Below, one piece after another: positions 15,742-32,350 of a stretch of 32,350 bases of DNA. The notes beneath the pieces were generated by a model. It worked only from the letters and a program-made list of their open reading frames with translations, had not been told where the DNA came from and did not search any database. The translations under genes were made by a program, and so were the position numbers. Origin of the DNA: Colwellia sp. (GTDB taxonomy: Bacteria > Pseudomonadota > Gammaproteobacteria > Enterobacterales > Alteromonadaceae); assembly GCF_013215345.1 (NCBI RefSeq), contig NZ_JABSOV010000044.1, positions 1 to 32,350 on the forward strand, written 5' to 3'. Each line of letters starts with the position of its first letter. Position 1 is the stretch's first letter.

Positions 15742-17424
15742 TTACTGAATAAACTCTCCTGCTAAGATATCCTTGTACTGGGCATCCTCTATCACCAAGG
15801 TACCATTAACAATCACCTGTTCTATCCCTACCGAGTAGTTATTCCATTGACTAAAAGTTGCCTTGGGTGAAAATGTTTGTTGATCAAAAACAATGACATC
15901 AGCCTTGTAGCCCACCTTTAACATGCCACGTTCGGTTAGACCGAGTATCTTGGCAGTTTGTGACGAGCTTCTATTAATAAAGTCAGCCATAGTGAGTAAT
16001 TTTTTCTCGACCACATAAGTTTGATATTTTCTTGGGAAACTAGCATATTTTCTCGGGTGACCATTTGTACCGTCTGAAGAAGTAACCACCCAAGGTTGTA
16101 CCATAAAACGTTCAACGTCTTTAGGTGACATATTAAATGACGCCACTCTCACATCACCTTCCAGTATTAACGCAATAGCGGTATCAACTATAGCTAGATT
16201 TTTCAACTCCGCTACTTGTAATAGATTTAAACCCACTAAGTCTGTATCAGTGAACTCAGTAATATACAGCGAGTCTGGACCACCTCTTCTACGGATATTC
16301 TCAGTAACTTCTTTTGCCAGCTTTTCAGCTAAATCCGCTTGTTTTAAACGTTGATGAAAAGCTTTTGTAGAATCAGCCATTACCCAATTTGGCATAACCG
16401 CACTGCGCAACTTGGTACCAGAGGCTAACCATGGATATTGATCTGCTGATATTGACGTACCATTTTTTTGAGCTTGCTCAATTTTATCAATTGCTTGCTC
16501 ACTTTGTCCCCAAACATCAACCCCTAATGCTTTGATATGCGCTAAATGTAAGTGAATATCGGCCTTGTCGGCAATATTAATCGCTTCATCAAGCGCGGCG
16601 GTAAAACCAATATTGAAGGTACTTTCATCACGTAAATGGGTGTCATAAATACCACCATAGTGACTGGCTATCTTGGCTAAGCTAATAACTTCGTCAGTGT
16701 TAGCATAACTACCAGGCACATAATATAAACCGGTTGATAAACCAATAGCGCCCGCTTGCATCGCTGTGGTGAGTAGTGCCGACATTTCACTGAGCTCTGC
16801 TGGTGTTGAATAACGCTCTGCTCTGCCCATAACTTGTTCTCTTAAACTGCCATGGCCGACTAATAACGCAGTATTTGTACCTATACCATTACTGGTTAAT
16901 TTTTCTGACATTGCAGCGATATCAACGGGACCGCCGCCGTCATTACCGTTAACAACGGTAGTCACACCTTGGGTTAAGTAATTTAAGTTGTGGTTTTTAT
17001 CTTTACTTAACAGCTCAGATAAAGAGTGAGTGTGTGGGTCAATAAAACCTGGGCTAACAATTTTACCTGTAGCATCAATTGTTTTGGTCGCTTTAATAGT
17101 ATGATCACCACTCGGATATAAACCACAAATAATTTTCTGGCAAATAGCGACATCGAGATGTTGAGCTTGGTTACTGTCCCCGGTGTATACCGTGCCGTTA
17201 GTAATTAAAAGATCAACATTATTGGCTAATTGCCCCTGTATCTTACTCTGTGTTTTATTTTGGCCAGGACTCTGCCCATTATTTTGTACTTCACTTTGAA
17301 CAGCACTGTCATCAGAGCAAGCTGTTAACAAGGCTAAACTTACTGCCATGGTAATTATTTTTTTATTAAGTGATTTTTCAGCAATCACTTTTATATCAAG
17401 AAATTTCACATTAAATATACTCAT
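15742..17424 (-). CDS. N-acyl-D-amino-acid deacylase (D-aminoacylase), lipoprotein
   Basis: A 560-residue amidohydrolase of the D-aminoacylase family. Visible signatures are the metal-binding DPHTHS (His131, His133), GLSTGLYYVPG, YDTHLRDES, HLAHIKALG, ADQYPW, and VTSSDGTNGHPRKYASFPR, all characteristic of N-acyl-D-amino-acid deacylases (N-acyl-D-glutamate, D-aspartate and general D-aminoacylases). A long basic N-terminus followed by SLALLTAC gives a lipobox at Cys36, so it is probably a periplasm-facing lipoprotein. That is unusual, as characterised enzymes are cytoplasmic. It releases a free D-amino acid from an acylated or dipeptide-like substrate. It starts 8 bp after the M14 peptidase stop codon with AGGA as ribosome binding site, so both belong to one operon. 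Confidence 0.88.
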   Translation of the reverse strand: MSIFNVKFLDIKVIAEKSLNKKIITMAVSLALLTACSDDSAVQSEVQNNGQSPGQNKTQSKIQGQLANNVDLLITNGTVYTGDSNQAQHLDVAICQKIICGLYPSGDHTIKATKTIDATGKIVSPGFIDPHTHSLSELLSKDKNHNLNYLTQGVTTVVNGNDGGGPVDIAAMSEKLTSNGIGTNTALLVGHGSLREQVMGRAERYSTPAELSEMSALLTTAMQAGAIGLSTGLYYVPGSYANTDEVISLAKIASHYGGIYDTHLRDESTFNIGFTAALDEAINIADKADIHLHLAHIKALGVDVWGQSEQAIDKIEQAQKNGTSISADQYPWLASGTKLRSAVMPNWVMADSTKAFHQRLKQADLAEKLAKEVTENIRRRGGPDSLYITEFTDTDLVGLNLLQVAELKNLAIVDTAIALILEGDVRVASFNMSPKDVERFMVQPWVVTSSDGTNGHPRKYASFPRKYQTYVVEKKLLTMADFINRSSSQTAKILGLTERGMLKVGYKADVIVFDQQTFSPKATFSQWNNYSVGIEQVIVNGTLVIEDAQYKDILAGEFIQ

Positions 17425-17432
17425 AGCATGTC

Positions 17433-18719
17433 CTATTGTTTATCATGATCAACGTTGGATAACATATTAATCATCAATATGTTAGCTGATTTAAAAGCAA
17501 TACGCTTTATCTTGGTGCGATCGGTATTGTCACCCATTTCATAGGTAATAGCATGAACACCAAATTTATCAGAGAAATACTGTTTTGAAACACCCAAACC
17601 AGGGTTGTTACCGGGTCTCAGTACGACGTCAAAATTTGGCATTTGACGATCAAGCTCAGCTAACCAATTCCTGACAAAATAAGCTTTTTCAACACCGTAA
17701 TCAACGGGCATGGTGTAAAAAATATCACTTTTGGTCGAGTGGAAATCTACCGCAAAACGTATTTTTTGTCCCTGACTAACCAATTGTTGCAAGTAGTCAT
17801 TGATCAGGCTAGTTTCAACTTGGCTGAAATCTACCCAGTCACGATTCAAATCTAAGCCATTAGCATTGCTGCGCCAATTACCAGCTTCAACACCATCAGG
17901 GTTGATATTGGGAATAACTAATACGTTATATTTTCTTAGAAAATAATTACTGAGTTCGCTGCTTGATAACAGTGTTTCGACAAAGGGAAAAAGTGCTAGT
18001 GCGCCAGTAACTTCTGGTGGATGTTGACGACCTAAAATAACCACCCACTCGTTAGCATTTTCATTTCGGCTCTCTATTTTATAAATAGGACGCCCTTGTG
18101 TTGATTGTCCTAAAATGCTGTGAGTAAAAGTATTTTTCTCGGTTAATTGTTTGGCCCAATCTACATAGTATTCATTATTAATAATTTCTTGCGCAGCAAT
18201 AGTAATTGGCTTAGCTGATGCCGTCATCTTCATGATTAAGCGCTTGCCCCGAATCTGGTAGTCTTGCAGCTGCCAGGTTTTACCATCACGACTAATTTTC
18301 GGTGGGTAACGATGTTCATCACCACGAACTTTCATGGTAATTTTAATATCAGTATTTTGCTCAGCCTGTACTTTAAAGGCGTACCAAGGGCTTGAGTTTA
18401 TCGGGGTATTTTCAGGAACTAAAACAATTTCAAATTCATTTTCAGCCACGCGTTTACATTCGTCCATGCGACCAGCAGAAAAATCAGCTGTCAACGTTAC
18501 CGGGCCGGCATCACATGATTTATTAGCAATGTTTTCACTGTTAACTTGCTTGCGGACTATTGCAAGTGGTGTCTTATCAGCAGATTGTACCGATTTTTCT
18601 GCTGATTGCTCTGTAGTAGTGGCAACCGCAGGGCTTTCTTTTTCAATAATATGAGGAGATGAACATGCAAACAAGAATAAAGGTAATAACAACGGAGCAG
18701 TTTTCAATAATTTAATCAT
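17433..18719 (-). CDS. M14 zinc carboxypeptidase, lipoprotein
   Basis: A 428-residue lipoprotein (lipobox FLFAC, Cys19) with an N-terminal beta-sandwich (about 50-170) reminiscent of the N-domain of cytosolic carboxypeptidase-like M14 enzymes, then an M14 catalytic domain. All key residues are visible: zinc ligands His233 and Glu236 (RQHPPEVTG) and His327 (VDFHSTKSD), substrate-binding Arg/Asn-Arg in GNWRSN and LDLNRDW, and catalytic Glu394 (TYEMGD). Relatives with this two-domain layout include deglutamylases that trim Glu side chains, but specificity cannot be read from the sequence. The ATG at 18719 is preferred to a TTG at 18728. It lies between the TonB receptor and the deacylase. Confidence 0.85.
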   Translation of the reverse strand: MIKLLKTAPLLLPLFLFACSSPHIIEKESPAVATTTEQSAEKSVQSADKTPLAIVRKQVNSENIANKSCDAGPVTLTADFSAGRMDECKRVAENEFEIVLVPENTPINSSPWYAFKVQAEQNTDIKITMKVRGDEHRYPPKISRDGKTWQLQDYQIRGKRLIMKMTASAKPITIAAQEIINNEYYVDWAKQLTEKNTFTHSILGQSTQGRPIYKIESRNENANEWVVILGRQHPPEVTGALALFPFVETLLSSSELSNYFLRKYNVLVIPNINPDGVEAGNWRSNANGLDLNRDWVDFSQVETSLINDYLQQLVSQGQKIRFAVDFHSTKSDIFYTMPVDYGVEKAYFVRNWLAELDRQMPNFDVVLRPGNNPGLGVSKQYFSDKFGVHAITYEMGDNTDRTKIKRIAFKSANILMINMLSNVDHDKQ

Positions 18720-18750
18720 AATTTTCAAACTATTAGTTGGTTAAAAATAA

Positions 18751-18836: not shown

Positions 18837-21737
18837 TTAAAAAGTTTTGCTCAAGTTCATGTATAAGTAACGACCACGGTTTGAATGATAATCACCTGAG
18901 TAACCATGCCAGTAATTATCTGCTACTGGTGGCTCTTCATCACCGATATTTCGAACACCTATTCTGATATAAGAACCATCTAAAAGAGTATCATTTGAAA
19001 CCTTGTATGAACCATACACATCGACAGTGGTAAAACTATCTATAGGTAAAAATACTTTTTCATCATCAACTGTCGCGTTTGTACTAGTATCAACAAACTC
19101 ACTAACATAATTTAAGCTAACACCAGCGCCCCAACCATTGAACCGCCAGTTAAGTGAACTTTTAGCGCGCCATTCAGGATTGCCATCTTGTTTGATTAAG
19201 TCACCTACACCGGCAACTTCTACGTCTTCAAGGTTTGGATATTTAACTAAATCTTTTTGGGCTTCAAGTACGGTAGCAGAAAGACTATCAACTGATGTTT
19301 CATATTTAGTTAAATAGGCGGCATTTACGTTAAATTCAAAGTCACCAAATGACGTTTCAAAGTCATACACCACACCGAAATCAAGACCAGACAACTCTTG
19401 GCTTGAGGCATTGATATATCGATTATTTACTTGGCTAGCGACTAAATCTTCATCACGAATAACGTTAGGATTACCAGCACCACCATCTACACGTAAAACA
19501 TAATCGTGTGCTAAAACGGTTTCATAAGGTGCAAGGAAAACCAAATTTTCTTGCTCTATATTCCAATAATCTACAGTAAATGTTAAATTTTCAAGTGGCT
19601 CAAAAATAAGTCCAAAAGAGGTATTTACACTGTCTTCTGGTGCTAGATTAGAGTTACCTTGACGATTATCAATAACAGCATAAGTGTCATCTAATACCGG
19701 ATCATACTTAGAGCTACGACGTGGCATGCTTGCTTCTTCAGAACTTTGTTGTAGGCCAGGTACTTTAAAACCACCCGCATACGATGCTCTCATGCTAAGC
19801 CAATTTGTAGGTTTGTAAAATAATGCGACTTTAGGTTTTAATGCATCACCACCGTCCGAAAAATTTTCATAACGTGCAGCAAGTTGCACTTCTGCATACT
19901 GATCACCACTGTCGATTAATGGCAAGATAAGCTCAGCAAAAACGGAAGTAACACTACGGCTAGCGCTAGCGTCCGTTGTTGCACTACTGCCATATAATGA
20001 ACTTTCATTAACCACACCTTTATAGTCCGTAAAAGGCAAACTACCATCTACATACTTAGAACGGTCACTGGTATAATCTTCATAGCGGTATTCAACACCT
20101 AGAGCAAGGCCAGCATCGCCAGCAGGCATTTCGAAGATCTCGCTATTCGAAGCCTTGAAATCGATTGATGCTAAACTCGTTGTTGAATCAGTGTGAGCTT
20201 GAATTAAAAACTGGTCAGTAATGGATTTCGACACTAATGGTCTATTTCCAATTGTATTTGGATTGTTAATATCACCACCACCAAAGACATTGTATGCGGT
20301 ACTTTCATCGGTAGAGTTTACTGCTTTTTCAAAAGCATTTATATCAATACGGGTACTGGCATCGTTGGTTTCAGCTGCACTATAAAATGCGGCACTTTCC
20401 CAATCCCATTCGCCCATGTAACCTTTAAAACCTGCTAGTACTCGATAACTTGTATCATCAACGGTAACGGTTCTTGGTCCAATATCAGTAGGTCGATATT
20501 TTCGTAAAGTAACTTTTTCGTCAAAAGGGTTATAAAAGGCATCTGCGGCTATGTTAAATCGATGTTTACTACCGTTGTGATTTTGCTCTGACTGATTGGT
20601 AAGTTCCGCTTGGTAATAAATACCTTCCGCAAAAAATTCGACATCATCATTAACTTGATGGGTGAAATGTGTGTAAAAGTTAATTCTTTGTGCATCTGAA
20701 GATAATGGACGTGTAGTACCACGATCAAATTTCACATCTCCACCGGGTTTAGAGCCAGCTGAACCGGAAACACTTTCTCCAACAACACAAACACCATCTA
20801 AACCAAGCGCACCGGATGCTCCGTCTGCACCACCGGCATCACAATCGCCCATACTTTCTGGCTGAAGATGAAATGTTCCGTAAGAAGAACTACTAAACTC
20901 GCCCCAAGGGGTATCACTGCTGCGGTTATCTAATTGACTATCACCAACAAATTCTTCAGGTAAACCAGGGTATTGACGTCTATCATGACTTGCTGAATAT
21001 GGACGTTCTGTTGCCATCATGCCATTTCGGTTGTAAATAGTAACCGAGCCAACTAAATTTGAACGGCCTTCGTTAAGCTCTAAACCACCTAAGTAGCTAA
21101 AGGTTGTTTCATTTAGCGGCGTGCCTTGTGATTCACCGTATCTAAGACTTACCTTACTACCAACATACTCACTATCAAGTGCATAGTTAACCACACCCGC
21201 AATAGCGTCAGAGCCATAAATTGCAGCAGCGCCATCACGTAAAACCTCTAATGAACGCAAGCCTGAAACAGGTAAAGTATTTGAGTTAACCGTATTGACC
21301 GGAACTTTATTAGCGCCTGACTTAGATTGAGTACCTGGGTGATTAACCATACGGCGGCCATTAAGCAATACTAACGTATTACCAGCGCCTAAACCTCGAA
21401 GGTTAAATGAGCCTACATCTCCACGTGCATCATTGACATTAGAAGAACCAGTGGTTTCACCGAAGTTAACTGACCCCATTTGTGGGATAGATCGAAGTAA
21501 TTCATCACCGGACACTGCCGCGGAATTTTCAATGTCAGATGCCGACATTACGGTTATGGGTAAAGTACTCACATCCGCAGCACGTTTAATATTTGAACCG
21601 ACAACAGAAATCCTTTCAATTTCTTCCTCTTTAATTTCTGCTTTTTCTGCAGCAAAGGCAACTTGAGAACTTAGTGCTGTTAGCACGCATAAACTCAAAT
21701 GTGACAGTTTAGACTTAAATATTGATTTATCTCTCAT
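18837..21737 (-). CDS. TonB-dependent outer-membrane receptor
   Basis: A 966-residue outer-membrane receptor. A signal peptide (MRDKSIFKSKLSH..., cleavage after VAFA) is followed by a plug domain (about 35-170) with LLRSIPQMG, SFNLRGLGAGNTLVLLNGRR and LRDGAAAIYGSDAIAGVVNY. A beta-barrel follows, with the TonB-box-2-like end region and a terminal Phe (YMNLSKTF). There is no FecA-like signalling domain. The layout is that of the large nutrient receptors of marine Alteromonadales that import oligomers. The ATG at 21737 is chosen because GGTGG is well spaced from it but abuts the alternative at 21746. It precedes two periplasmic lipoprotein hydrolases, so the substrate is probably a peptide-like or acyl-amino-acid compound; an operator dyad lies about 135 bp upstream. 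Confidence 0.92.
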   Translation of the reverse strand: MRDKSIFKSKLSHLSLCVLTALSSQVAFAAEKAEIKEEEIERISVVGSNIKRAADVSTLPITVMSASDIENSAAVSGDELLRSIPQMGSVNFGETTGSSNVNDARGDVGSFNLRGLGAGNTLVLLNGRRMVNHPGTQSKSGANKVPVNTVNSNTLPVSGLRSLEVLRDGAAAIYGSDAIAGVVNYALDSEYVGSKVSLRYGESQGTPLNETTFSYLGGLELNEGRSNLVGSVTIYNRNGMMATERPYSASHDRRQYPGLPEEFVGDSQLDNRSSDTPWGEFSSSSYGTFHLQPESMGDCDAGGADGASGALGLDGVCVVGESVSGSAGSKPGGDVKFDRGTTRPLSSDAQRINFYTHFTHQVNDDVEFFAEGIYYQAELTNQSEQNHNGSKHRFNIAADAFYNPFDEKVTLRKYRPTDIGPRTVTVDDTSYRVLAGFKGYMGEWDWESAAFYSAAETNDASTRIDINAFEKAVNSTDESTAYNVFGGGDINNPNTIGNRPLVSKSITDQFLIQAHTDSTTSLASIDFKASNSEIFEMPAGDAGLALGVEYRYEDYTSDRSKYVDGSLPFTDYKGVVNESSLYGSSATTDASASRSVTSVFAELILPLIDSGDQYAEVQLAARYENFSDGGDALKPKVALFYKPTNWLSMRASYAGGFKVPGLQQSSEEASMPRRSSKYDPVLDDTYAVIDNRQGNSNLAPEDSVNTSFGLIFEPLENLTFTVDYWNIEQENLVFLAPYETVLAHDYVLRVDGGAGNPNVIRDEDLVASQVNNRYINASSQELSGLDFGVVYDFETSFGDFEFNVNAAYLTKYETSVDSLSATVLEAQKDLVKYPNLEDVEVAGVGDLIKQDGNPEWRAKSSLNWRFNGWGAGVSLNYVSEFVDTSTNATVDDEKVFLPIDSFTTVDVYGSYKVSNDTLLDGSYIRIGVRNIGDEEPPVADNYWHGYSGDYHSNRGRYLYMNLSKTF

Positions 21738-21869
21738 GACATCCACCGTTGTAATTTAGCTTGTTTTATAATTGTCAGGTTATTAGCTACCTGATCATTT
21801 AGTTACGTTTCATTCACCTTAACCATGAACTTAAATTACAAGGTTAACAATTAACGCTTTATTGCTGCC

Positions 21870-21888
21870 CTATAACCTTGGGTTATAG
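21870..21888. promoter_or_regulatory. Perfect copy of the shared operator dyad (TonB receptor)
   Basis: CTATAACC-TTG-GGTTATAG is a perfect 8+3+8 palindrome with T-N11-A core TAACCTTGGGTTA at 21873-21885. It lies about 135 bp before the receptor start codon. It is the clearest member of the set at 8311, 12440, 21873, 27107 and 29971. Confidence 0.8.
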
Positions 21889-22158: not shown

Positions 22159-25100
22159 TTAAGCAAGTAAAGTTCTTAATTGACGGTTAGCAAAATAGAG
22201 TTTATCTATGTGCACTTTACCGCTGTTCTTTAAATCATCAAGCACGCTATTTATCCTATTTAACGCTGAGCACTTGTCTTTTGACCACAGCTCAATAGCG
22301 ATTTCAGCCGGCTCATTTCGATTACTGTTAATTACATTTACCACCAGTTTTTCTCGAATTTCGAGTAAATCAAGTAATAAACTAAAGCGCGCTAACCTTG
22401 ACCAATGATCTTTCGCCGGCACCCGCTCTGTTTGCTCTATTAACCAGGCAAGACCGAGCAAGTTACTTATTTTACAGTAACAGGGCAAAATTTCAGTCAC
22501 CGTTAACTTGAGCTCAAACGCAGTTTTGACAATGTCACAGAACACCACGCTAGAAACTTTTAACTGATGAATTTTATCAACCAAAGCTTGAGCTTCACCC
22601 TCGCTCTCAAGTTGATAGAGTGACTCATCAACCGGTGAGAATGGTAGGCTAATGTCGTCACCATTAAGCTGCTGTAAGGTATGTAACCCAGGTGTAAAGC
22701 GCTGTACTATGCTAGCGATACTTTCATCTGCATTAGCGTGGTTAATAAACCAAATAGCCATTAGACGATAAAAACGCTGGACTTCTATCATCATCTTAAT
22801 TTGAATCTGCGCTGAAACACACCCTTGTAGCGCTTCTATTTGATGCCAAATATCATCCAAAGCAAACACTTCTTTGGCAATAATAAACGCTTTGACAATT
22901 TCGGCGATAGTTGCGCCGGTCTGCTCTCTTACCGCATGTATACCGCCACGGTTGAAAATTTCATTGGCGATACTGGTGGCAATAATTTGTTTGGCTAACG
23001 GATGATTAATAATCTCTGCTTGGTATTCATTGGCCAAGATGACAGGAAACGCCGATAATAAGTATTTTTTGAAGTAGCTATCGGTTATTAAATGCTGCTC
23101 TTTTAATAAGGCATCATGCACATCCATTTTTGAATAAGCCATCAACACCGCTAACTCAGGTCGAGTTAGCCCTTGCTGAGCAATAACTCTTGCTTGCAAC
23201 TCTTCGTCATCGGGTAAGTACTCTAATTCACGGTTTAAACCGATGCTATTGACCAAGTATTGGCTTAAACGGGTAAAACTATCAAAATGAGATTGGCTAT
23301 TCGCTTCATCGATACTTAATGCTTGCGCTTGATAATAATTATTACGCAATACCATAGCGCCAACTTCGTCAGTCATCGATGCTAATAAGGCATCACGCTG
23401 TGTTTTAGTCATGTTTTGCTTATCAACTAAGCCATTGAGCAATATTTTAATATTTACTTCAGCGTCTGAACAATTAACGCCAGCGGAGTTATCAACCGCA
23501 TCGGTATTAATTTTACCGCCGCCTTTAGAAAACTCTATTCGGGCCAGTTGACTACAACCTAAGTTTCCGCCTTCACCAATGACCTTACAGCGTAATTCAT
23601 TACCATTAACACGCAACAAGTCGTTAGCTTTGTCCCCTACTTCGGTATTAATTTCACTACTGGCTTTAACATAAGTGCCTATACCGCCAAACCAGAGTAA
23701 ATCGGCCTGACAGAGTAAAACATGACGAATCAAGTCATTTGGAGACAGTCGTTCAACCTTACTATCTATATTAAGTAACTGTTTTATTTGTGCTGTTAAT
23801 GGAATGTGTTTAACCGAGCGACTGAAAATACCACCGCCAGCAGAAATTAAGGACTTATCATAATCCTGCCATGAGGAACGATCCAGCTGGTAAAGTCTAC
23901 TGCGCTCGACATAACTCAAGGGGCTATCAGGTGTTGGGTCGATAAATATATCCCGGTGGTCAAAAGCCGCTACTAGATTTATCGTTTTTGAAGACAACAT
24001 GCCATTACCAAAGACATCGCCAGACATATCACCGATTCCAATAACACTGATTTCATCTTGTTGCACATCAATAGCCATCTCGTTAAAATGTCGCTGCACT
24101 GACACCCAAGCACCCTTGGCAGTTATACCCATTTTTTTATGATCGTAGCCAACACTGCCACCCGAGGCAAAAGCATCGCCGAGCCAAAAGCCATAATCGT
24201 CAGCGAGGGCATTAGCAATATCGGAAAAGGTTGCCGTGCCTTTATCTGCAGCGACAACTAAATAGCTATCATCGCCATCAAAACAAACCACATCTTTCGG
24301 CTTAACTATGCCGTCAGCGGTATTATTGTCGGTTAGGTCTAATAACGCTGAGATAAACACCTTATAACAACTTATGCCTTCGTTAAGAATACTTTCGCGT
24401 GTGCCGTTAACGGGCAGTTTCTTAGAGACAAAGCCGCCTTTAGCGCCTTGTGGCACAATAACAACATTTTTAACTTGCTGCGCTTTTACTAAACCCAAAA
24501 TTTCAGTTCTAAAGTCTTCTTGCCTATCAGACCAACGTAAACCACCACGAGAAACAGGACCAAACCTTAAATGCACACCTTCAACTTGCGGCGCATAAAC
24601 AAAGGTTTCAACATAAGGTCTAGGTTGCGGCGCATCATCAATTTCACCACTGCGAATTTTAAAGCTACAGTAATGTTTATGCTCGCCACTTGGAGTAACT
24701 TGATAGAAATTAGTTCTTATGGTGGCTGAAATGGCAGCAATAAAGTTACGGAGAATTCTGTCATGGTCAATTTTTGTTACCGTACTGAGACTTGCTAATA
24801 ACTCGCCTTTGATAACCTCAGTCATGGCATTACGTTGATCAATTGAGTCATCAGTTAAGGCAAAGCGTGCTTCGAATAAGTTGATGAGACCATGGACAAT
24901 CTCAGGGTAATTAAGCAAGGCTTGTTGGAAGTACTCTTCGGAGTAACCTAAACCTAATTGACGTAAGTATTTACCGTAAGCGCGAATAATAACAATTTGC
25001 CTGATACTGAGATCAGCACCAAGTAATAACTTGTTATAGCCATCACTTTCAATGCTACCGGCCCACACTTGTGCCAATGCGTACTCAAGATTAATTTTTA

Positions 25101-26904
25101 ATGCATCAATATCGGTATCTTCATTAGGATACTCAAGGGTATAACTATAAACTTTGCTACTAGTATTGCTAATTGAACAGCTGACATGAAAGCTAAATTC
25201 ATCGACAGGTCTGAAACCAAACTGCTCTAAAAAAGGAATAGAATCACTTAAAGCAATGCTTTGCTCTAAAGTATATATATTTAAGGTAAGCTCACTTTTA
25301 CTTTGTGCTGAGCGGTAAACTTGAAACTGATAAACATTGTCAGAAGTTAAACACTCAATGTTCTTTATTGCTCTTATGGCTTGTTTAGCAGAAAAGTGCT
25401 CTCTATAAGTTTTCGAAAAAGCATTGCTATATTTCTTAACTAACAAGTTTGCTTGCTGGCCCTGCCACAATTGCGAGATCAGTGTAGTTAAATTCTCATT
25501 CCAACTTTGTGTTTTAGACTCAATACTTGCTATCAAGGCGCTGAGATCGACTTCATTTTTAAGGCAAGCACCTTTTTTAACAATAAAATGCCACTGCGCG
25601 AGGTAGTTATCATTTAGCATTGAACGACGAGATAAGATTTCACCTTGATAAGCCCCGGCTAACTCACTTTCAATTTCATCACGTAAATCGGTACAAAATG
25701 CGTCTTTAGAAACAAATACCAGTACTGACACTTGTTCATTTAAATCATTCTCCCTAATAAAAACGCCTGATTTACTTCTTACATTTAGGTTATGAATGCT
25801 CTTCGCTAAAACAAGCAGTTGCGCAACGCTACTTTCATATAACTCTCTTTTGGGTAACACCGCGAGAATATGGGTGAAATTACGATAGTCGTGGCTATCT
25901 ACTTTCAAGCACAGCTGTTGTAAAACTTGTGCTAACTTAGCCTGTAAAAAAGGGATTTTGTTGGGTTGTAAATTATTAGCGACTTGCGTGAATAATCCCG
26001 AAAACTGATGAACAGCAATTAAATCACCCTGCTGAGAAAATTCCTTAACACTGATTAAATCAAGGTAATCATGGCGATGAATTGTTGATTTTACTAATGA
26101 CTTACTGACCATCAATGGCTTGCTGTCAGCAACAAACCGGCTAAATTCTACCGGTGAAAGTGTTAAAGCCTCAGTCTTAATCGCGACATCATCATGAAAG
26201 GTGCCCAAACAGCCTCTAGCTGGTTCCGCGTTACCTTTAGCGTTTGTTTTTATATAGTTATAACCCATAAAAACAAAGTGTTGCTGACAAAGCCAAGTTA
26301 AAAACGTTTCAGTATCATTATCTGCTAAATCAGCTGACTTATGGTTAATACCTTTAGTTTTGACCATCATTAACGGCCAATCTTGCGTTACTCTAGCGAT
26401 ATCTGCCAATAATTTTTGGATAGTTTCAACGAGTTCGCCAACCACTATTGGCTCTAGTTGATTAGCTAGCTCTATGTATAAAATGGACTCGTCTCGACCA
26501 GCATCTACTGCTTTACAGGTACCATCGAAAATATGAGTTCGATTAACAACAGGATGTAAAAACACATTTATTTTATAACCCTGTGCTTTTAATAACGCCG
26601 AAATAGAATCAACAATAAAGGCTTTGTCATCGGTAATAATATGAATGACTGAGCCTGCAACCAACACACCTTGTTGTTGTCTATTTTCGATGACAACTTT
26701 ATTTTCATTGCTGTTACGATCAGCAAAGGATTGCCATAATATCAAAGCGGTTTGATAACGCTGTGAGGTTGATAGCATTTGTAAATCAACACTGAGTAAG
26801 CTGTTAAAAATTTGCTGAGAAAAACGTTCAAAAGCAGTTATATCTGCCTCAGGGTAGCTTTCATTAATATAACGACATAATTCTAAATCAGTAGCGACAG
26901 TCAC
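22159..26904 (-). CDS. gdhB: NAD-specific glutamate dehydrogenase (large, ~180-kDa type)
   Basis: A 1581-residue protein of the large bacterial NAD-GDH family (characterised in Streptomyces and Pseudomonas, about 1600 residues). The long N-terminal half carries the regulatory ACT-like segments, and the catalytic domain lies about 740-1250. It shows VEGVHLRFGPVSRGGLRWSD and PQGAKGGFVSKK with Lys822 in the glutamate-binding region, then the dinucleotide-binding part (IGIGDMSGDVFGNGML) and GEGGNLGCSQLARIEF. It oxidatively deaminates L-glutamate to 2-oxoglutarate and ammonia, a catabolic enzyme. The start is GTG (AAGG nine bases upstream). It is divergent from the decarboxylase-gltS pair, so glutamate uptake and breakdown share a control region. 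Confidence 0.93.
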   Translation of the reverse strand: MTVATDLELCRYINESYPEADITAFERFSQQIFNSLLSVDLQMLSTSQRYQTALILWQSFADRNSNENKVVIENRQQQGVLVAGSVIHIITDDKAFIVDSISALLKAQGYKINVFLHPVVNRTHIFDGTCKAVDAGRDESILYIELANQLEPIVVGELVETIQKLLADIARVTQDWPLMMVKTKGINHKSADLADNDTETFLTWLCQQHFVFMGYNYIKTNAKGNAEPARGCLGTFHDDVAIKTEALTLSPVEFSRFVADSKPLMVSKSLVKSTIHRHDYLDLISVKEFSQQGDLIAVHQFSGLFTQVANNLQPNKIPFLQAKLAQVLQQLCLKVDSHDYRNFTHILAVLPKRELYESSVAQLLVLAKSIHNLNVRSKSGVFIRENDLNEQVSVLVFVSKDAFCTDLRDEIESELAGAYQGEILSRRSMLNDNYLAQWHFIVKKGACLKNEVDLSALIASIESKTQSWNENLTTLISQLWQGQQANLLVKKYSNAFSKTYREHFSAKQAIRAIKNIECLTSDNVYQFQVYRSAQSKSELTLNIYTLEQSIALSDSIPFLEQFGFRPVDEFSFHVSCSISNTSSKVYSYTLEYPNEDTDIDALKINLEYALAQVWAGSIESDGYNKLLLGADLSIRQIVIIRAYGKYLRQLGLGYSEEYFQQALLNYPEIVHGLINLFEARFALTDDSIDQRNAMTEVIKGELLASLSTVTKIDHDRILRNFIAAISATIRTNFYQVTPSGEHKHYCSFKIRSGEIDDAPQPRPYVETFVYAPQVEGVHLRFGPVSRGGLRWSDRQEDFRTEILGLVKAQQVKNVVIVPQGAKGGFVSKKLPVNGTRESILNEGISCYKVFISALLDLTDNNTADGIVKPKDVVCFDGDDSYLVVAADKGTATFSDIANALADDYGFWLGDAFASGGSVGYDHKKMGITAKGAWVSVQRHFNEMAIDVQQDEISVIGIGDMSGDVFGNGMLSSKTINLVAAFDHRDIFIDPTPDSPLSYVERSRLYQLDRSSWQDYDKSLISAGGGIFSRSVKHIPLTAQIKQLLNIDSKVERLSPNDLIRHVLLCQADLLWFGGIGTYVKASSEINTEVGDKANDLLRVNGNELRCKVIGEGGNLGCSQLARIEFSKGGGKINTDAVDNSAGVNCSDAEVNIKILLNGLVDKQNMTKTQRDALLASMTDEVGAMVLRNNYYQAQALSIDEANSQSHFDSFTRLSQYLVNSIGLNRELEYLPDDEELQARVIAQQGLTRPELAVLMAYSKMDVHDALLKEQHLITDSYFKKYLLSAFPVILANEYQAEIINHPLAKQIIATSIANEIFNRGGIHAVREQTGATIAEIVKAFIIAKEVFALDDIWHQIEALQGCVSAQIQIKMMIEVQRFYRLMAIWFINHANADESIASIVQRFTPGLHTLQQLNGDDISLPFSPVDESLYQLESEGEAQALVDKIHQLKVSSVVFCDIVKTAFELKLTVTEILPCYCKISNLLGLAWLIEQTERVPAKDHWSRLARFSLLLDLLEIREKLVVNVINSNRNEPAEIAIELWSKDKCSALNRINSVLDDLKNSGKVHIDKLYFANRQLRTLLA

Positions 26905-27012: not shown

Positions 27013-27103
27013 ATTTCCAGGCAAATTCATTTTGTTGACCAAGGTATAACCAAACGTTGTAGTTACTTCGCGTGATTTTATTACAAGCGCTTTCAACTAG
27101 AGC

Positions 27104-27122
27104 ACATAACCCTAAGTTATTA
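27104..27122. promoter_or_regulatory. Shared operator dyad upstream of decarboxylase
   Basis: CATAACC-CTA-AGTTATT, with T-N11-A core at 27107-27119, matches the shared dyad with one changed base in the right GGTTAT half-site. It lies about 120 bp before the decarboxylase ATG and about 200 bp before the GDH start, so it could serve either or both. Confidence 0.65.
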
Positions 27123-27240
27123 CCTAGCAAAGATTAACTAATACCCATTTTCATATTGTTACATTATCTTAAAGGTATCGAAGAAGAATCATCTGTTATT
27201 GCAACAGTGGCATGTTTCCTTAATTGAAAAAGATACCCAT

Positions 27241-28518
27241 ATGAACAGAAATCAAAACATAATAAAAACAGCTATCAACGCACACGCTATCGATAATGAT
27301 TTAACCGCTATTGGCGTGATGGATTTATACGGTTTAAGAAAAACCGTCAGTGATGCTTATGCCGCTTTCCCCGTTAATTTCTTCCACACCTTTGCGGTAA
27401 AAGCTAATGCCTTAGTCAATGTATTAAAGCCTTTACGGGAATATGGTATGGGCGCTGAAGTTGCCAGCCCTGGGGAATTATTAATTGCCCTTACCGCAGG
27501 TTTTTCTGCCCAGAACATTATCTTTGATTCTCCTGCAAAAACACTACAGGACTTACGCACCTGTATAAAAAGTGACATAGCCCTTAACATTGATAACTTA
27601 CAAGAGCTTGCACGCATTGATGCACTAATGCTTGAATTTCCTGACAGTAAATCTGTCATTGGCTTTCGTGTTAACCCACAAATTGGCGCCGGTAAAATTG
27701 GCTCAACAAGTACAGCAACAGCAACGTCAAAATTTGGTTATGCCTTACTGGATAATGATAACCGTAATACCCTTATTAATATTTATAAGGCTCGTCCTTG
27801 GTTAACGAGTATTCATACTCACACTGGCTCCCAAGGCTGTGAACTTACCTTAATGGCATATGGCATTAAGGTCATTACCGAGTTAGCCGAGGAAATAAAT
27901 GCGGTAATTGGTAGTCAACAAATATCCCGTTTAGATATTGGTGGCGGTTTGCCAGTAAACTTTAGCTCAGAAGTAATTAAGCCAAGCTTTAAAGATTACG
28001 CAGACATATTAAAAGCTGAAGTACCCTTATTGTTTACCGGTAAGTACCAAGTAAAAACTGAATTTGGTCGTGCTATTGTTGCGAAAAATGGCGTCATTAT
28101 TACCCGTGTAGAATACACAAAAAACTCTGGCGGTCGTCACATTGCCACCACACACGCCGGCGCACAAATCCTCACCCGTACGGCATTTTTACCTAAATCA
28201 TGGCCAATTAGAGTCACGGGTTATACCGCTGAAGGCATAGAAAAAAACCCTCAAAACTCAGAAGTTGTCACCACAGATGTTGCAGGACCTTGTTGTTTTG
28301 CCGGTGATCTAATCTGCAGTAATCAACAGTTACCCAAGTTAGAGCTCAATGACTATGTCATGGTGCACGATACGGGTGGTTATTACTTTACCAATCATTT
28401 TGATTACAACAGCTTACCTCGAGTAGCTGTTTACGCTGTCAGCGGCCCCGACGATTCCTTATCAATGACATGCATACGTGAGCCAGAATCCTTACAAGAT
28501 GTTTTAAACAAGATGTAA
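27241..28518 (+). CDS. Fold-type III PLP decarboxylase, LysA-like but not a typical DAP decarboxylase
   Basis: A 425-residue alanine-racemase-fold (type III) decarboxylase. Visible parts are the Schiff-base Lys54 in HTFAVKANALVNVL, EVASPGEL, HTHTGSQG, the phosphate-binding DIGGGLPV, the EFGR motif (EPGR in LysA) and the catalytic Cys352 in GPCCFAGD. Diaminopimelate decarboxylases have Cys-Glu and ornithine decarboxylases Cys-Asp at this point; here Phe353 follows the Cys, so the substrate's distal group is probably not a second amino-acid centre. It is followed 133 bp later by gltS and divergent from GDH. A glutamate-related substrate is my inference; a precedent is BtrK, a family member that decarboxylates a glutamyl thioester. 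The ATG at 27241 is chosen although the ribosome binding site is weak. Confidence 0.85.
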   Translation: MNRNQNIIKTAINAHAIDNDLTAIGVMDLYGLRKTVSDAYAAFPVNFFHTFAVKANALVNVLKPLREYGMGAEVASPGELLIALTAGFSAQNIIFDSPAKTLQDLRTCIKSDIALNIDNLQELARIDALMLEFPDSKSVIGFRVNPQIGAGKIGSTSTATATSKFGYALLDNDNRNTLINIYKARPWLTSIHTHTGSQGCELTLMAYGIKVITELAEEINAVIGSQQISRLDIGGGLPVNFSSEVIKPSFKDYADILKAEVPLLFTGKYQVKTEFGRAIVAKNGVIITRVEYTKNSGGRHIATTHAGAQILTRTAFLPKSWPIRVTGYTAEGIEKNPQNSEVVTTDVAGPCCFAGDLICSNQQLPKLELNDYVMVHDTGGYYFTNHFDYNSLPRVAVYAVSGPDDSLSMTCIREPESLQDVLNKM

Positions 28519-28651
28519 GTGCTTCTAGCATTGTAAAAACACATCGTCAGCAAAAATCCTCATACTAAATCAGTCTAATGCAAGCCACTCTTTAACGACA
28601 ACTTATTGAGTGAGCTTAGCTTAGTCACATAACTATAAAGTGAGTTTAATC

Positions 28652-29863
28652 ATGGACATCAACGTCGGTATCTTAGAAACATTAGTGGTTGCATTAATTA
28701 TTCTTTTTTCAGGTTATTATTGTAATAGCAAAGTAGCCCTCTTACGCAACAATAACATTCCAGAGCCCGTTGTTGGCGGTATACTCTTTTCAATATTAGC
28801 CGCCATAGCACATAGCTTTTTTGATATTCACTTTAATTTTGAAATGGGATTTAAAAACCCGTTAATGACGGTGTTTTTTACTACTGTTGGCTTAGGGGCA
28901 AGTTACTCGTTATTAGTCAAAGGTGGCCCAAAGGTTATTTTGTTCTTAGGGGTCGCAACCTTATATCTACTGGTCCAAAATGCGGTTGGTGTTTCATTAG
29001 CCATAGGTGCCGGCATGGACCCATTAATGGGTTTAATTGGCGGCTCAGTCACTCTTTCTGGCGGTCATGGTAATGGCGCTACTTATGCCGATTTATTTAT
29101 TAGTGAATACAATATGCCTTCCACTGTATTTGAACTGGCTATGGCAGCCGCGACCTTAGGCTTAGTTTTAGGTGGTTTGGTTGGTGGTCCGGTAAGTAAA
29201 CGATTGATTAAACGCTATAATCTAAAAGCTGATAGTTATCATGAAGAGCTTGATGATACGATAACCTTTAACCCGGAAGATCATGATCTAGTGACCCCGA
29301 AAAAAATGATGGAAACCCTATTCATTATTTTATTATGTATGACGGTTGGCCACGTGGTGTACTTAGAGTTAAAAAGTAATGATGTCATTTTACCCGCTTT
29401 TTTGATGCCACTATTATTTGGTGTATTAGCAACAAATTTAACTGAATTATCTAAACGCTACACCATCAGCAGAGCTTGCATTGATTTATGGGGCACCATG
29501 GCCTTATCGATTTTTTTAGCCTTAGCGCTAATGTCATTAAAAGTCTGGGAATTGGCCAACCTAGCGCTGCCAATGATAGTTATTATTTTAGTCCAAACCA
29601 TTATGCTAATGATGTTTGCTTACTTTATTACTTTTAGAGTTATGGGCAAAAATTATAATGCTGCTATTATTGCCGGTGGTCACTGTGGTTTTGGTTTAGG
29701 GGCTACGCCTACGGCGGTTGCTAATATGGAATCTCTGGTTGCCAGACATGGTCCATCTCCACAAGCATTCTTAGTAGTACCTTTAGTGGGCGCATTCTTT
29801 ATAGATATTACCAATGCGCTGGTTATTCAACTGTATTTAAGCCTGCCATTTGTTACACCTTAA
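28652..29863 (+). CDS. gltS: Sodium/glutamate symporter
   Basis: A 403-residue inner-membrane carrier that aligns along its whole length with E. coli GltS (401). Shared blocks include IPEPVVGG near the N-terminus, DPLMGLIGGSVTLSGGHGNG, TLGLVLGGLVGGPV, ALMSLKVWELANLALPM, and GGHCGFGLGATPTAVANM, with the ending VVPLVGAFFIDITNALVI. About ten to twelve membrane segments in two inverted halves. GltS imports L-glutamate, and in E. coli also D-glutamate, with Na+. The ATG at 28652 is used; a GTG at 28640 would add four residues. It probably forms an operon with the decarboxylase upstream and supplies its substrate or that of GDH. Confidence 0.95.
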   Translation: MDINVGILETLVVALIILFSGYYCNSKVALLRNNNIPEPVVGGILFSILAAIAHSFFDIHFNFEMGFKNPLMTVFFTTVGLGASYSLLVKGGPKVILFLGVATLYLLVQNAVGVSLAIGAGMDPLMGLIGGSVTLSGGHGNGATYADLFISEYNMPSTVFELAMAAATLGLVLGGLVGGPVSKRLIKRYNLKADSYHEELDDTITFNPEDHDLVTPKKMMETLFIILLCMTVGHVVYLELKSNDVILPAFLMPLLFGVLATNLTELSKRYTISRACIDLWGTMALSIFLALALMSLKVWELANLALPMIVIILVQTIMLMMFAYFITFRVMGKNYNAAIIAGGHCGFGLGATPTAVANMESLVARHGPSPQAFLVVPLVGAFFIDITNALVIQLYLSLPFVTP

Positions 29864-29962: not shown

Positions 29963-29991
29963 CTAAGTTATAACCTAAGGTTATAGCTTAG
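29963..29991. promoter_or_regulatory. Extended perfect operator dyad upstream of nhaC
   Basis: CTAAG-t-TATAACC-TAA-GGTTATA-g-CTTAG: the 17-bp core (T-N11-A at 29971-29983) is a perfect dyad, and the symmetry continues to five more bases on each side. A further TATAACC half-site, with a degenerate T-N11-A at 30146-30158, lies closer to nhaC, resembling the recruitment-site plus activation-site pairs known for LysR regulators. Confidence 0.75.
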
Positions 29992-30109: not shown

Positions 30110-30211
30110 ATGACTAAACAAGATCAAAGCTTTAATAGCTATGCTATAACCTACTATAACGCCAGTGCCCTAAACATATGCACCTTGACCACTAGGGATG
30201 GTCATTCATGA
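30110..30211 (+). CDS. Possible 33-residue leader peptide overlapping nhaC
   Basis: An ORF of 33 codons ([20 protein letters not shown]..., one Cys at residue 24) starts with ATG eight bases after AAGGG (30097-30101). It stops in a TGA that overlaps the nhaC start as ATGA (30208-30211). That overlap is the classic arrangement for translational coupling. The peptide has no signal or membrane segment and no run of rare or repeated codons typical of attenuator peptides. It may be a regulatory leader or chance; the good ribosome binding site and exact overlap favour a real ORF. Confidence 0.45.
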
Positions 30212-31941
30212 GTAAAAACAATAGCCTAGCCCTGGTTATTATTAGCCTAGGATTATTTTTCGCTATCTACGTTAATAATGCGGTTGATAAAACCTGGCTA
30301 GAGCAATCCTACCTCTATGATACTTACCAAACAGACTCAGGTGAAAATGCTTATATATATAAGGGCAAAGAAGTCATTATCAAAGATGTGGTGCCCTACC
30401 ATCAATCACCGCTCAAACAAGAAAACTTAAACCTAAGCATAAATGAGCTAAGTCAGCAGCCGCCATTTACACAGCAATGGGTAGAAAAGGACGACCAGCA
30501 ATTAACACTGCTTAAACCTGCCTTTCACTTTGGCCTGTGGTCATTGTTGCCTGCTTTTATCACCATCGCCTTATGCTTGCTCACTCGTGAGCCATTAAGC
30601 TCACTTTTTGCTGGCATAGTGGTCGGCTCAATAATGTTAGGTCAATACGATTTAACCGATGCGGTGATCATTCCCAATTTAGCCAAAGAAGGTACGGCTG
30701 GGCTGTTATTACTGTATCTATGGTTATTAGGTGGCTTATTAGGTATTTGGTCTAAAACCGGTGCTGCCCAAGCCTTTGCTAATTATATGACCGAGCACTT
30801 TGTTAAAGGTCCACGCTCAGCCAAGCTTATTTCTTGGCTGCTAGGAATATTATTTTTCCAAGGCGGCACTATGAGTACCGTTTTAGTAGGTACCACAGTT
30901 AGGCCATTAGCTGATAAAGCTAAAGTGAGCCACGAAGAAATGAGTTATATCGTTGACTCAACCGCTTCACCTATTGCCTTAGTTATCGCTTTTAATGCTT
31001 GGCCTGCCTATGTGCAAGCGTTAATTTTTGTCCCTGGAGTAGCCTTTTTGGCGACAGAAGCAGACCGAATAAGCTTCTTTTTTAACAGTATCCCTTTCAG
31101 TTTTTATGGCATTATCGCGGTAATAGGCACCTTATTATTATGTTTAAATATCACCACTTTTTCCGGTAAAAGAATTCGCCAAGCTCAACAAAGAGCCGAA
31201 AAAACAGGCCAGTTAGATGCTCCTGGCGCAAGACCGTTAAGTGCTAAAGAGTTACAAGCTTGTAATGTGCCGTCGGGATATAACTCCCATGTCTTAGAAT
31301 TTATCCTACCTTTAGTCACCCTGATCGCTATTGCTGTTAGCACTTTTATCTATTTAGGCTCTCCTAAAATAAATTGGGCTTTTGGTGCAGCTTTACTCTT
31401 GTCTGCTGGCATTGCCTTAATCAAAGGCATGACCTTAACTGATGTTGTTGACGGCTTTGGTAATGGTTTAAAAGGTGTGGTGCTTGCCTCTGTAATATTA
31501 ATGCTCGCGGTGATTATTGGCAGTATCAGCAAAGAAATTGGCGGCGGCTTGTATTTAGTGTCATTACTTGGTGAACAATTACCCTTTTGGCTGTTACCGC
31601 TGATATTACAGTTAATCACTATGGTTATCGCTTTTTCTACTGGTACCAGTTGGGGTACCTATGCAATCGCGTTTCCATTAGCTATGCCTTTAGCTTGGGC
31701 TGTTTGCCAATCTCAAGGGCTGGCTAATCCCGAGCTATTTATGATGGTTTGTTTTGCCACAGTGCTTAATGGTAGCGTCTTTGGCGATCAATGTTCACCT
31801 ATATCAGATACCACCATATTGAGTGCCATGACCACTGGTTGTGATTTAATGGACCATGTTAAATCTCAGTTAGTACCAGCGACATTTGCGGCAACGCTTG
31901 CTGGCTGTTTATGGACACTCACCGTTTACTTTTTTGCTTAA
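30208..31941 (+). CDS. NhaC-family Na+/H+ antiporter
   Basis: A 577-residue inner-membrane protein of the NhaC family. The C-terminal signature [21 protein letters not shown]...DHV is the family hallmark, and the central [17 protein letters not shown] and [15 protein letters not shown] blocks also fit. It carries an N-terminal extension: one membrane segment (about 7-24), then some 80 hydrophilic residues predicted to face the periplasm, before the usual bundle starts near residue 110. NhaC-type proteins exchange cytoplasmic Na+ for H+; some relatives exchange organic acids or amino acids instead. Next to Na+-coupled GltS it could restore the sodium gradient or move a catabolic product. A ribosome binding site AGGG lies ten bases upstream. 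Confidence 0.85.
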
Positions 31942-31975: not shown

Positions 31976-32350
31976 ATGCGCTTACGACATATTGAGATTT
32001 TTCACGCCATTTACACCACGGGCTCAATAACGAATGCTGCTAAAATATTACATGTTTCCCAACCATCGGTCAGCAAAGTATTATCTCACGCGGAAATGCA
32101 GCTCGGTTTTGACTTATTTAAACGGGTTAAAGGTCGTTTGATCCCAACCGATGAAGCGGAAATGCTGTTTGATGAAGTAGATAAAATATACCAACAGATG
32201 CGTTCTATCAAGAATACCGCAGAGAACATTAAAAAATCTGAATATGGCCAAATAAGCATAGCGGGCAGTCCCGCATTAGGTTTTGATGTTATGCCAAGTG
32301 CCATCGCAAAATATCACCAAAAACATCCTCAGGTAAACTTTAACGTACAA
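31976..32350 (+). CDS. LysR-family regulator, N-terminal part (cut by window end)
   Basis: The first 125 codons are open to the right edge. AGGAGA (31965-31970) is ideally spaced before the ATG. Residues 1-60 form a typical LysR helix-turn-helix (MRLRHIEIFHAIYTTGSITN, then SQPSVSKVLSHAE and LFKRVKGRLIPTDEA), and the effector domain begins near residue 92. The N-terminus resembles regulators of amino-acid catabolism such as OccR/NocR-type proteins. It begins 34 bp after nhaC and is probably co-transcribed, so it is a second candidate for the shared operators. Confidence 0.9.
   Translation, partial: MRLRHIEIFHAIYTTGSITNAAKILHVSQPSVSKVLSHAEMQLGFDLFKRVKGRLIPTDEAEMLFDEVDKIYQQMRSIKNTAENIKKSEYGQISIAGSPALGFDVMPSAIAKYHQKHPQVNFNVQ

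Follow-up and report, generated by a model that had tools for sequence, protein, structure and literature searches.

A clade of LysA-like decarboxylases that probably acts on D-glutamate and stands in for DgcN-DgcA in a marine bacterial regulon

What is the substrate of a LysA-family decarboxylase that is encoded next to a glutamate symporter and lacks the acidic residue after the catalytic cysteine? The question is raised by a gene in a 32,350-nucleotide stretch of DNA analysed here as a whole (hereafter, the window; located on contig C197, in a draft genome of 4.24 Mb), the closest named relatives of which, judged by this gene, belong to Colwellia. The original prediction was that the product is a D-glutamate or gamma-glutamyl decarboxylase feeding the 4-aminobutyrate (GABA) transaminase GabT. 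The D-glutamate branch of this prediction gains genomic, not biochemical, support, and the gamma-glutamyl branch is not excluded.

The gene (hereafter DC) starts with an ATG codon and encodes a protein of 425 amino acids, with a longer version starting at a TTG codon at 27199 being possible. The assignment to the LysA family is confirmed: the protein contains both PF02784 (121.8 bits, cut-off 23.4) and PF00278 (47.4 bits, cut-off 23) domains together with the catalytic Lys and Cys, and hence is a fold-type III PLP decarboxylase. The best NCBIfam match is LysA (TIGR01048), with a score of 228.8 bits that is under the curated cut-off of 297.9; membership in the DokD family (NF052544; 92.3 bits, cut-off 700) is not met, and the fold-type I glutamate decarboxylase family (GAD, TIGR01788) is not among the 8 NCBIfam families that match DC with E-values up to 0.001. 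The AlphaFold2 model of DC (mean pLDDT 83.8, with low reliability in active-site loops 313-320 and 351-356) is closest to diaminopimelate (DAP) decarboxylases (2yxx, 3c5q and 2qgh; Z 38.8-38.9, rmsd 2.4-2.5, 381-385 residues aligned), the best single match being 3c5q (Z 38.9, rmsd 2.5, 385 residues).

The check for a separate, true lysA that accompanied the original prediction gave a positive result. The genome encodes four PF02784 proteins, DC included, of which one, on contig C203, is a true LysA (484.5 bits, motif GPVCETGD), another belongs to the exosortase-associated type (TIGR03099, 625.3 bits, cut-off 478.45), and the remaining paralog was not assigned to any family. Because C203 carries a true LysA, the refuting condition that the genome has no lysA other than DC is not fulfilled, and the possibility that DC is a second LysA for lysine synthesis is rejected. 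In all 27 genomes that hold DC (hereafter, carriers), a LysA scores above the cut-off, and the DC copies are all below it (209.5-239.4 bits). DC fails LysA membership by score and by the residue after Cys, and satisfies it by the pair of arginines discussed below. In a tree of 53 proteins, 34 DC-family members split off by a branch with support 100/100, and 17 LysAs (97/80) and the two other paralogs from the same genome fall outside. Judging from these sequence comparisons, DC forms a clade of its own within the LysA superfamily; the exact neighbour of this clade is unsure because the tree warns of long branches.

Named genomes yielded 26 loci with relatives of DC at 64-93% identity, two more Pseudomonadota have relatives at 50-53%, and a plasmid search at 1e-60 gave five records, all of them actinobacterial (45-52%); among viral contigs, 52 pattern matches included no relative. 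The distribution is rare and patchy, with DC present in 13 of the 36 other genomes of the same genus, in 21 of 395 at the family level and in 3 of 398 from Pseudomonadota at large (the latter two counts include the genome analysed here).

The motif around the catalytic cysteine is GPCCFAGD, as originally read: Cys352 is followed by Phe353, which is invariant in an alignment of 22 sequences and is the only residue at its column in 31 DC-family rows. The corresponding position is occupied by Glu (Glu343 of LysA) in Escherichia coli LysA and 16 LysAs from the same and related genomes, in line with the notion that DAP decarboxylases have Cys-Glu. Other members of the superfamily also have a non-acidic residue after Cys, namely, BtrK (GPLCTPED) and the two non-LysA paralogs from the same genome (GPLCTPLD and GPLCTSMD). 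What is distinctive in DC, at the level of the alignment, is the loss of this Glu with both distal-carboxylate arginines, R277 and R313, kept. These arginines, along with K54, C352 and Y381, are common to the 31 family rows and the LysAs; Tyr311 of LysA is replaced by Ala, Leu or Met at position 317 in the 31 rows, and Lys282, His305, Gln309 and Thr314 are new compared to LysA and fixed in the family rows checked.

In the Thermotoga maritima enzyme (TmDAPDC), the equivalent residues R249 and R285 bind the distal carboxylate of DAP, and E315 binds the distal amine (PMC8277567). With both arginines kept and the amine reader lost, the predicted substrate is an acidic amino acid lacking such an amine. 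DAP decarboxylase removes CO2 at the D centre of DAP, and of 2-aminopimelate, the E315T variant accepted the D form alone (PMC8277567). The loss of Glu is not sufficient by itself: E315F gained some activity toward 2-aminopimelate and aminoadipate and retained about 5% of the DAP activity (36 of 675 mU/mg), with no detectable D-Glu activity, and E315Q alone showed slight D-Glu activity (5.9 mU/mg; PMC8277567). Phe353 alone, therefore, does not explain the use of D-Glu, and other fixed changes in DC would have to shorten the pocket, for which there is no model. Whether the substrate is a D or an L acid cannot be read from the sequence.

The genes and sites around DC are listed in Table 1.

Table 1. 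Features of the DC locus and related loci (window positions unless a locus is given; fractions are DC loci with the gene)
Feature	Position	Strand	Evidence and remarks
DC, fold-type III PLP decarboxylase, proposed D-glutamate decarboxylase	27241..28518	+	ORF, Pfam, alignment, fold, tree; key residues K54, R277, R313, C352, F353, Y381
LysR-type box ATAACCCTAAGTTAT between NAD-GDH and DC	27106..27120	.	exact ATAACN5GTTAT
Second box copy, NAD-GDH/DC intergenic region	27046..27060	.	one mismatch
LysR-type box 5' of TonB receptor	21872..21886	.	exact
LysR-type box 5' of NhaC-like gene	29970..29984	.	exact
GltS sodium/glutamate symporter	28640..29863	+	TIGR00210 439.3 bits, cut-off 310.75; 26/40
NhaC/ArcD-like transporter	30208..31941	+	PF03553; 11/40
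LysR-type regulator, cut by window end	31976..32350	+	25/40
NAD-dependent glutamate dehydrogenase (NAD-GDH), divergent from DC	22159..26904	-	PF05088 835.5 bits; 17/40
TonB-dependent receptor	18837..21746	-	PF00593, PF07715; 23/40
M14-family peptidase	17433..18728	-	PF00246; lipoprotein-like by eye; 18/40
D-aminoacylase-like amidohydrolase	15742..17424	-	PF07969; lipoprotein-like by eye; 10/40
GabT, 4-aminobutyrate transaminase	8432..9724	-	TIGR00700 584.1 bits, cut-off 506.65
GabD, succinate-semialdehyde dehydrogenase	9821..11278	-	TIGR01780 690.5 bits, cut-off 646.35
PGA_cap (CapA-like) protein	6013..8175	-	7/40
LanC-like protein	1173..2378	+	PF05147 123.1 bits
Gamma-glutamyltransferase (GGT) genes near DC	L042 11278-13092; L051 11303-13069, 16637-18388; L052 4825-6777; L062 4733-6505; L068 10842-12611
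M55 D-aminopeptidase, Embleya	L061 10296-11129		directly after DC gene
Weak N-formylglutamate amidohydrolase domain + Golvesin domain, Pseudoalteromonas sp. NBT06-2	L047 7016-8320		3' of DC-gltS
Second, divergent dgcA-dgcN pair, Colwellia	L115 5930-9360; L117 6751-9944

The predicted context, with GltS downstream (121 bp past the DC stop codon), NAD-GDH divergent and gabT and gabD in the window, stands, and no lysine genes are among the window genes identified. The 40 DC loci compared include some short ones and are not independent because many come from close Colwellia; the counted partner genes are all absent in seven of them (L053, L054, L056, L060, L063, L064 and L069). Across the 395 genomes of the family, all 21 carriers have D-aminoacylase and 20 of them have GltS, compared to 44 and 26, respectively, of the 374 other genomes; in one carrier (G067), DC and GltS are on separate contigs. 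In Pseudoalteromonas denitrificans (L046), gabD and gabT are located just past gltS. GGT genes are found within 2.5 kb of DC in 5 of the 40 loci, in gammaproteobacteria, Arenicellales and Streptomyces. The PDB matches of the D-aminoacylase-like protein are a D-aminoacylase (1.9e-54), an N-acyl-D-glutamate deacylase (7.1e-49) and the sugar deacetylase PpOngB (7e-47), and its family includes sugar deacetylases; in an ungapped extension of the alignment, Val or Ile occupies the position of the BbDam Arg that reads the side chain of N-acyl-D-Glu (PMC12017989). The NhaC/ArcD-like transporter might function in the exchange of amino acids or GABA and not as a sodium/proton antiporter.

Comparison of 12 stretches around gltS, 11 from DC-less genomes and one (L109) from the carrier G067, revealed a counterpart of this locus. 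Nine DC-less loci (L099-L107) encompass genes for the TonB receptor, M14 peptidase, GltS and LysR, followed by two genes after LysR, and eight of the nine also encode D-aminoacylase; in L108 and L110, gltS is present without the TonB receptor/M14/LysR set. In L103, the two genes are those for the N-acetyltransferase DgcN (NF041892, 486.7, cut-off 480) and the N-acetyl-D-Glu racemase DgcA (NF042940, 424.6, cut-off 400); only this pair was scored against the profiles, and the other eight pairs are its close relatives by clustering. DgcN-DgcA can convert D-Glu to L-Glu (PMC10845958), dgcN being described as the key gene of this pathway and as serving acidic D-amino acids and their amides (PMC12363236). 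By its partners and the kind of box it shares, the DC locus matches D-glutamate loci of the dgcN-dgcA type, binding of the box by the regulator in response to D-Glu being a prediction. The LysR proteins are 66-79% identical among DC loci and 66-74% identical between DC and dgcN-dgcA loci (relatives compared). A PGA_cap gene is present in 7 of the 9 dgcN-dgcA loci, and its product is possibly a part of D-glutamate or poly-gamma-glutamate handling.

We then counted these genes in 60 selected genomes: the 27 carriers, 18 genomes that lack DC but encode a GltS at 76-81% identity (a further DC-less genome, G453, with a broken gltS copy was left out) and 15 other genomes of the same genus. Close dgcN (72-87% identity, plus the query's own genome) is present in none of the 27 carriers, 15 of the 18 DC-less genomes with close GltS (p 2e-9 vs the carriers) and none of the other 15, and close dgcA (at least 61%) is present in the same 15 genomes; weak dgcA-like matches (31-33%) in 4 of the 15 other same-genus genomes, in G553 and in G773 were not counted. 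Counting against the D-glutamate decarboxylase reading, divergent dgcN (47-49%) is present in five of the 27 carriers (the genome analysed here, G015, G034, G035 and G039), with dgcA adjoining it in four. All carrier and locus counts are uncorrected for shared ancestry. The LysR encoded beside the second dgc copy is only 33-37% identical to the LysR proteins above. Next to the second dgcA-dgcN pair, a protein that, by inspection of its sequence alone, is isoaspartyl peptidase-like is encoded; D-aspartyl compounds are perhaps the substrates.

The two types of loci share a putative regulatory site. A search for any shared spaced palindrome in 20 DC upstream regions and 10 gltS regions of the DC-less group yielded ATAACN5GTTAT in 14 of the 20 and all 10, respectively; palindromes of this form suit LysR regulators. 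The loci, 1.0 Mb in total, contain 83 exact boxes, compared to 0-1 in each of five Markov shuffles. The six one-mismatch boxes in the window alone (2.37 expected; 5 of 100 shuffles reach six) are weak evidence; the exact sites across loci are strong evidence. Within the range of -400 to +90 of gene starts, an exact box precedes 22 of 37 DC genes (30 with one mismatch allowed, leaving 7 without a box; of the 40, L060 is partial and the L061 and L063 genes were not picked by the ORF caller), 8/9 dgcN genes, 26/31 TonB receptor genes, 9/10 NhaC-like genes and 11/16 NAD-GDH genes, the latter often through the same site as the divergent DC. Among unlabelled ORFs, which are mechanical calls with spurious ones included, only 6/352 have an exact box and 21/352 one with up to one mismatch (Fisher p 6e-21 for DC vs unlabelled ORFs, exact box, kinship uncorrected). 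Exact boxes precede 10/37 gltS genes, all 10 outside DC loci, and few LysR (6/33) and GGT (1/7) genes; for PGA_cap genes, the counts are 3/9 exact and 6/9 with one mismatch. No exact box was found in this range before D-aminoacylase (0/16), M14 (0/23), GabD (0/3) or GabT (0/2) genes, so that the related control of the gab genes assumed in the original prediction is unsupported.

Across the genome of origin, the pattern ATAACYN4GTTAT occurs at 21 distinct sites, 3 of them in the window (32 strand matches vs 13 for the reversed pattern). A genome-wide regulon was rejected, the three sites inspected outside the window (at C135:5976 and on C201 and C224) being inside ORFs with no evident link, and a promoter scan was uninformative (17 sigma-70-like sites found vs 17.1 expected).

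A GABA-forming DC would require the carriers to have a GABA transaminase. Indeed, 25 of 27 carriers encode a close GabT (E up to 1e-120), compared to 6 of 33 non-carriers (p 4e-9) and 1 of 15 genomes with close dgcN (p 3e-8), with kinship uncorrected and more distant transaminases in other genomes not included. The two carriers that lack it are G039 and G554, and in G554 another class III aminotransferase is encoded about 120 bp away. No GAD above the cut-off is encoded in the genome of origin, and the only one of 41 genomes with a GAD is not a carrier. An acid-stress GAD system was rejected on the same ground (GadC was outside the search).

Given the true lysA elsewhere in the genome, the retention of both arginines with the Glu lost, the replacement of dgcN-dgcA, the shared box, the co-occurrence with GabT, D-aminoacylase and GltS, the GGT and M55 D-aminopeptidase genes near DC in some loci and the lack of a GAD, we conclude that the main substrate of DC is quite likely free D-Glu, a reading that has genomic support and no assay. 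In the inferred pathway, D-Glu would be released on the outer side of the cytoplasmic membrane, by the peptidase, by the D-aminoacylase-like protein or, in certain relatives, by gamma-glutamyltransferase, and would enter the cell through GltS. PLP on Lys54 would then form an aldimine with D-Glu, with Arg277 and Arg313 holding the side-chain carboxylate; as with DAP decarboxylase, the D centre would lose CO2, whereupon GABA would be released. GabT and then GabD would convert GABA to succinate, the divergent NAD-GDH would regenerate the 2-oxoglutarate consumed by GabT, and the neighbouring LysR probably senses D-Glu or a product. Apart from the inactivity of E315F on D-Glu and the divergent dgcN in five carriers, this reading is weakened by the Val or Ile of the D-aminoacylase-like protein and the sugar deacetylases in its family, the two carriers without a close GabT, the seven loci devoid of partner genes, the seven DC genes without a box and the separation of DC from GltS in G067. 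The weakest links are the choice between D and L, the length of the pocket and the members outside Alteromonadales.

Of the alternatives, decarboxylation of gamma-glutamyl (probably gamma-D-glutamyl) peptides, with gamma-Glu-X converted to GABA-X and then hydrolysed, is compatible with the GGT genes near DC and with the glutamyl thioester substrate of the related BtrK (PMC7857480). Without a structural model, one may also infer that the spacing between the alpha carbon and the two distal arginines could roughly match that expected for the C-terminal carboxylate of gamma-Glu-Gly. We consider this possibility unlikely: the DC family keeps the second arginine that is absent in BtrK, so that a free side-chain carboxylate fits DC, GltS is, by family name, a symporter of free glutamate, and the DgcN-DgcA proteins that DC replaces act on free D-Glu. 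A fold-type III L-glutamate decarboxylase involved in GABA formation or acid tolerance would account for the GabT co-occurrence, the GltS and NAD-GDH neighbours and the lack of a GAD over the cut-off in the genome, and the L-acting BtrK, FigC and SbnH belong to the same larger clade (PMC7857480). Such an activity appears quite improbable, however, for an enzyme that replaces D-Glu genes behind a box of the same kind, has D-aminoacylase-like and D-aminopeptidase neighbours, and finds its nearest sequence and fold matches among D-acting DAP decarboxylases.

Other D-amino acids that carry a carboxylate in the side chain (D-Asp, D-2-aminoadipate or D-2-aminopimelate) come into consideration given that TmDAPDC E315F and E315T accept 2-aminopimelate and aminoadipate, not D-Glu (PMC8277567), and given the range of acidic D-amino acids and amides served by dgcN (PMC12363236); GltS, GabT and the replacement of DgcN/DgcA all point to glutamate and GABA, making this a very doubtful option. 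The least credible candidate is a second DAP decarboxylase for the consumption of peptidoglycan DAP. Marine Pseudomonadota do grow on DAP using LysA (PMC9602339), and E315F is not devoid of DAP activity (PMC8277567), but in DC both the amine-reading Glu and the nearby Tyr are lost in the 31 family rows, the scores are below the LysA cut-off in 27/27 carriers, and lysine genes are lacking among the identified genes of the window.

D-glutamate occurs in peptidoglycan, as one of its building blocks, and in marine dissolved organic matter (PMC10845958), and the routes to L-Glu named in that article are the racemase YgeA and DgcN-DgcA. A search of the open-access PMC literature (subscription papers were outside it) did not find the term 'D-glutamate decarboxylase'. 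According to PMC8277567, no decarboxylases other than DAP decarboxylases are known to act on a D centre, contrary to which the PDB names include a D-ornithine/D-lysine decarboxylase. DC has the type III decarboxylase fold, but its activity would be new. It seems likely that DC is the first natural D-glutamate decarboxylase, a LysA-like clade that converts D-Glu to GABA, displaced DgcN-DgcA in the same marine regulon and links cell-wall D-Glu turnover to the GABA shunt. If this is true, marine bacteria have a new way to eat D-glutamate, a one-step, irreversible route that requires no acetyl donor and ends in GABA and succinate; the family that others tried to re-engineer (PMC8277567) would include a natural D-acid decarboxylase; and 'diaminopimelate decarboxylase' labels, such as those of the Streptomyces and Arthrobacter plasmid copies, would be corrected.

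Compared with the known systems, DC shares with LysA the fold, the catalytic Lys and Cys, the two distal-carboxylate arginines and Tyr381; unlike DC, LysA has Glu in place of Phe after Cys and the Tyr four residues past the second Arg that DC lost, and lacks Lys282, His305, Gln309 and Thr314, in addition to the separation of DC by score and clade. BtrK, which converts glutamyl to GABA on a carrier thioester (PMC7857480), has the same fold (2j66: Z 36.9, rmsd 2.8, 380 residues) but a different motif and no second distal arginine, so that DC does not qualify as a BtrK-type enzyme. DokD is likewise a fold-type III enzyme that acts on a D centre (9nq5: Z 34.5, rmsd 2.6, 400 residues), whereas its substrates, D-ornithine and D-lysine, have a basic side chain. 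GadB-type GAD has in common with DC the proposed product, GABA, but is of fold type I (PMC8277567), shows no sequence match and uses L-Glu. The closest parallel at the level of the locus is DgcN-DgcA, with the same partners, a similar LysR regulator and the same box; however, these enzymes acetylate and racemise D-Glu towards L-Glu (family names; PMC10845958), whereas DC would remove CO2 directly.
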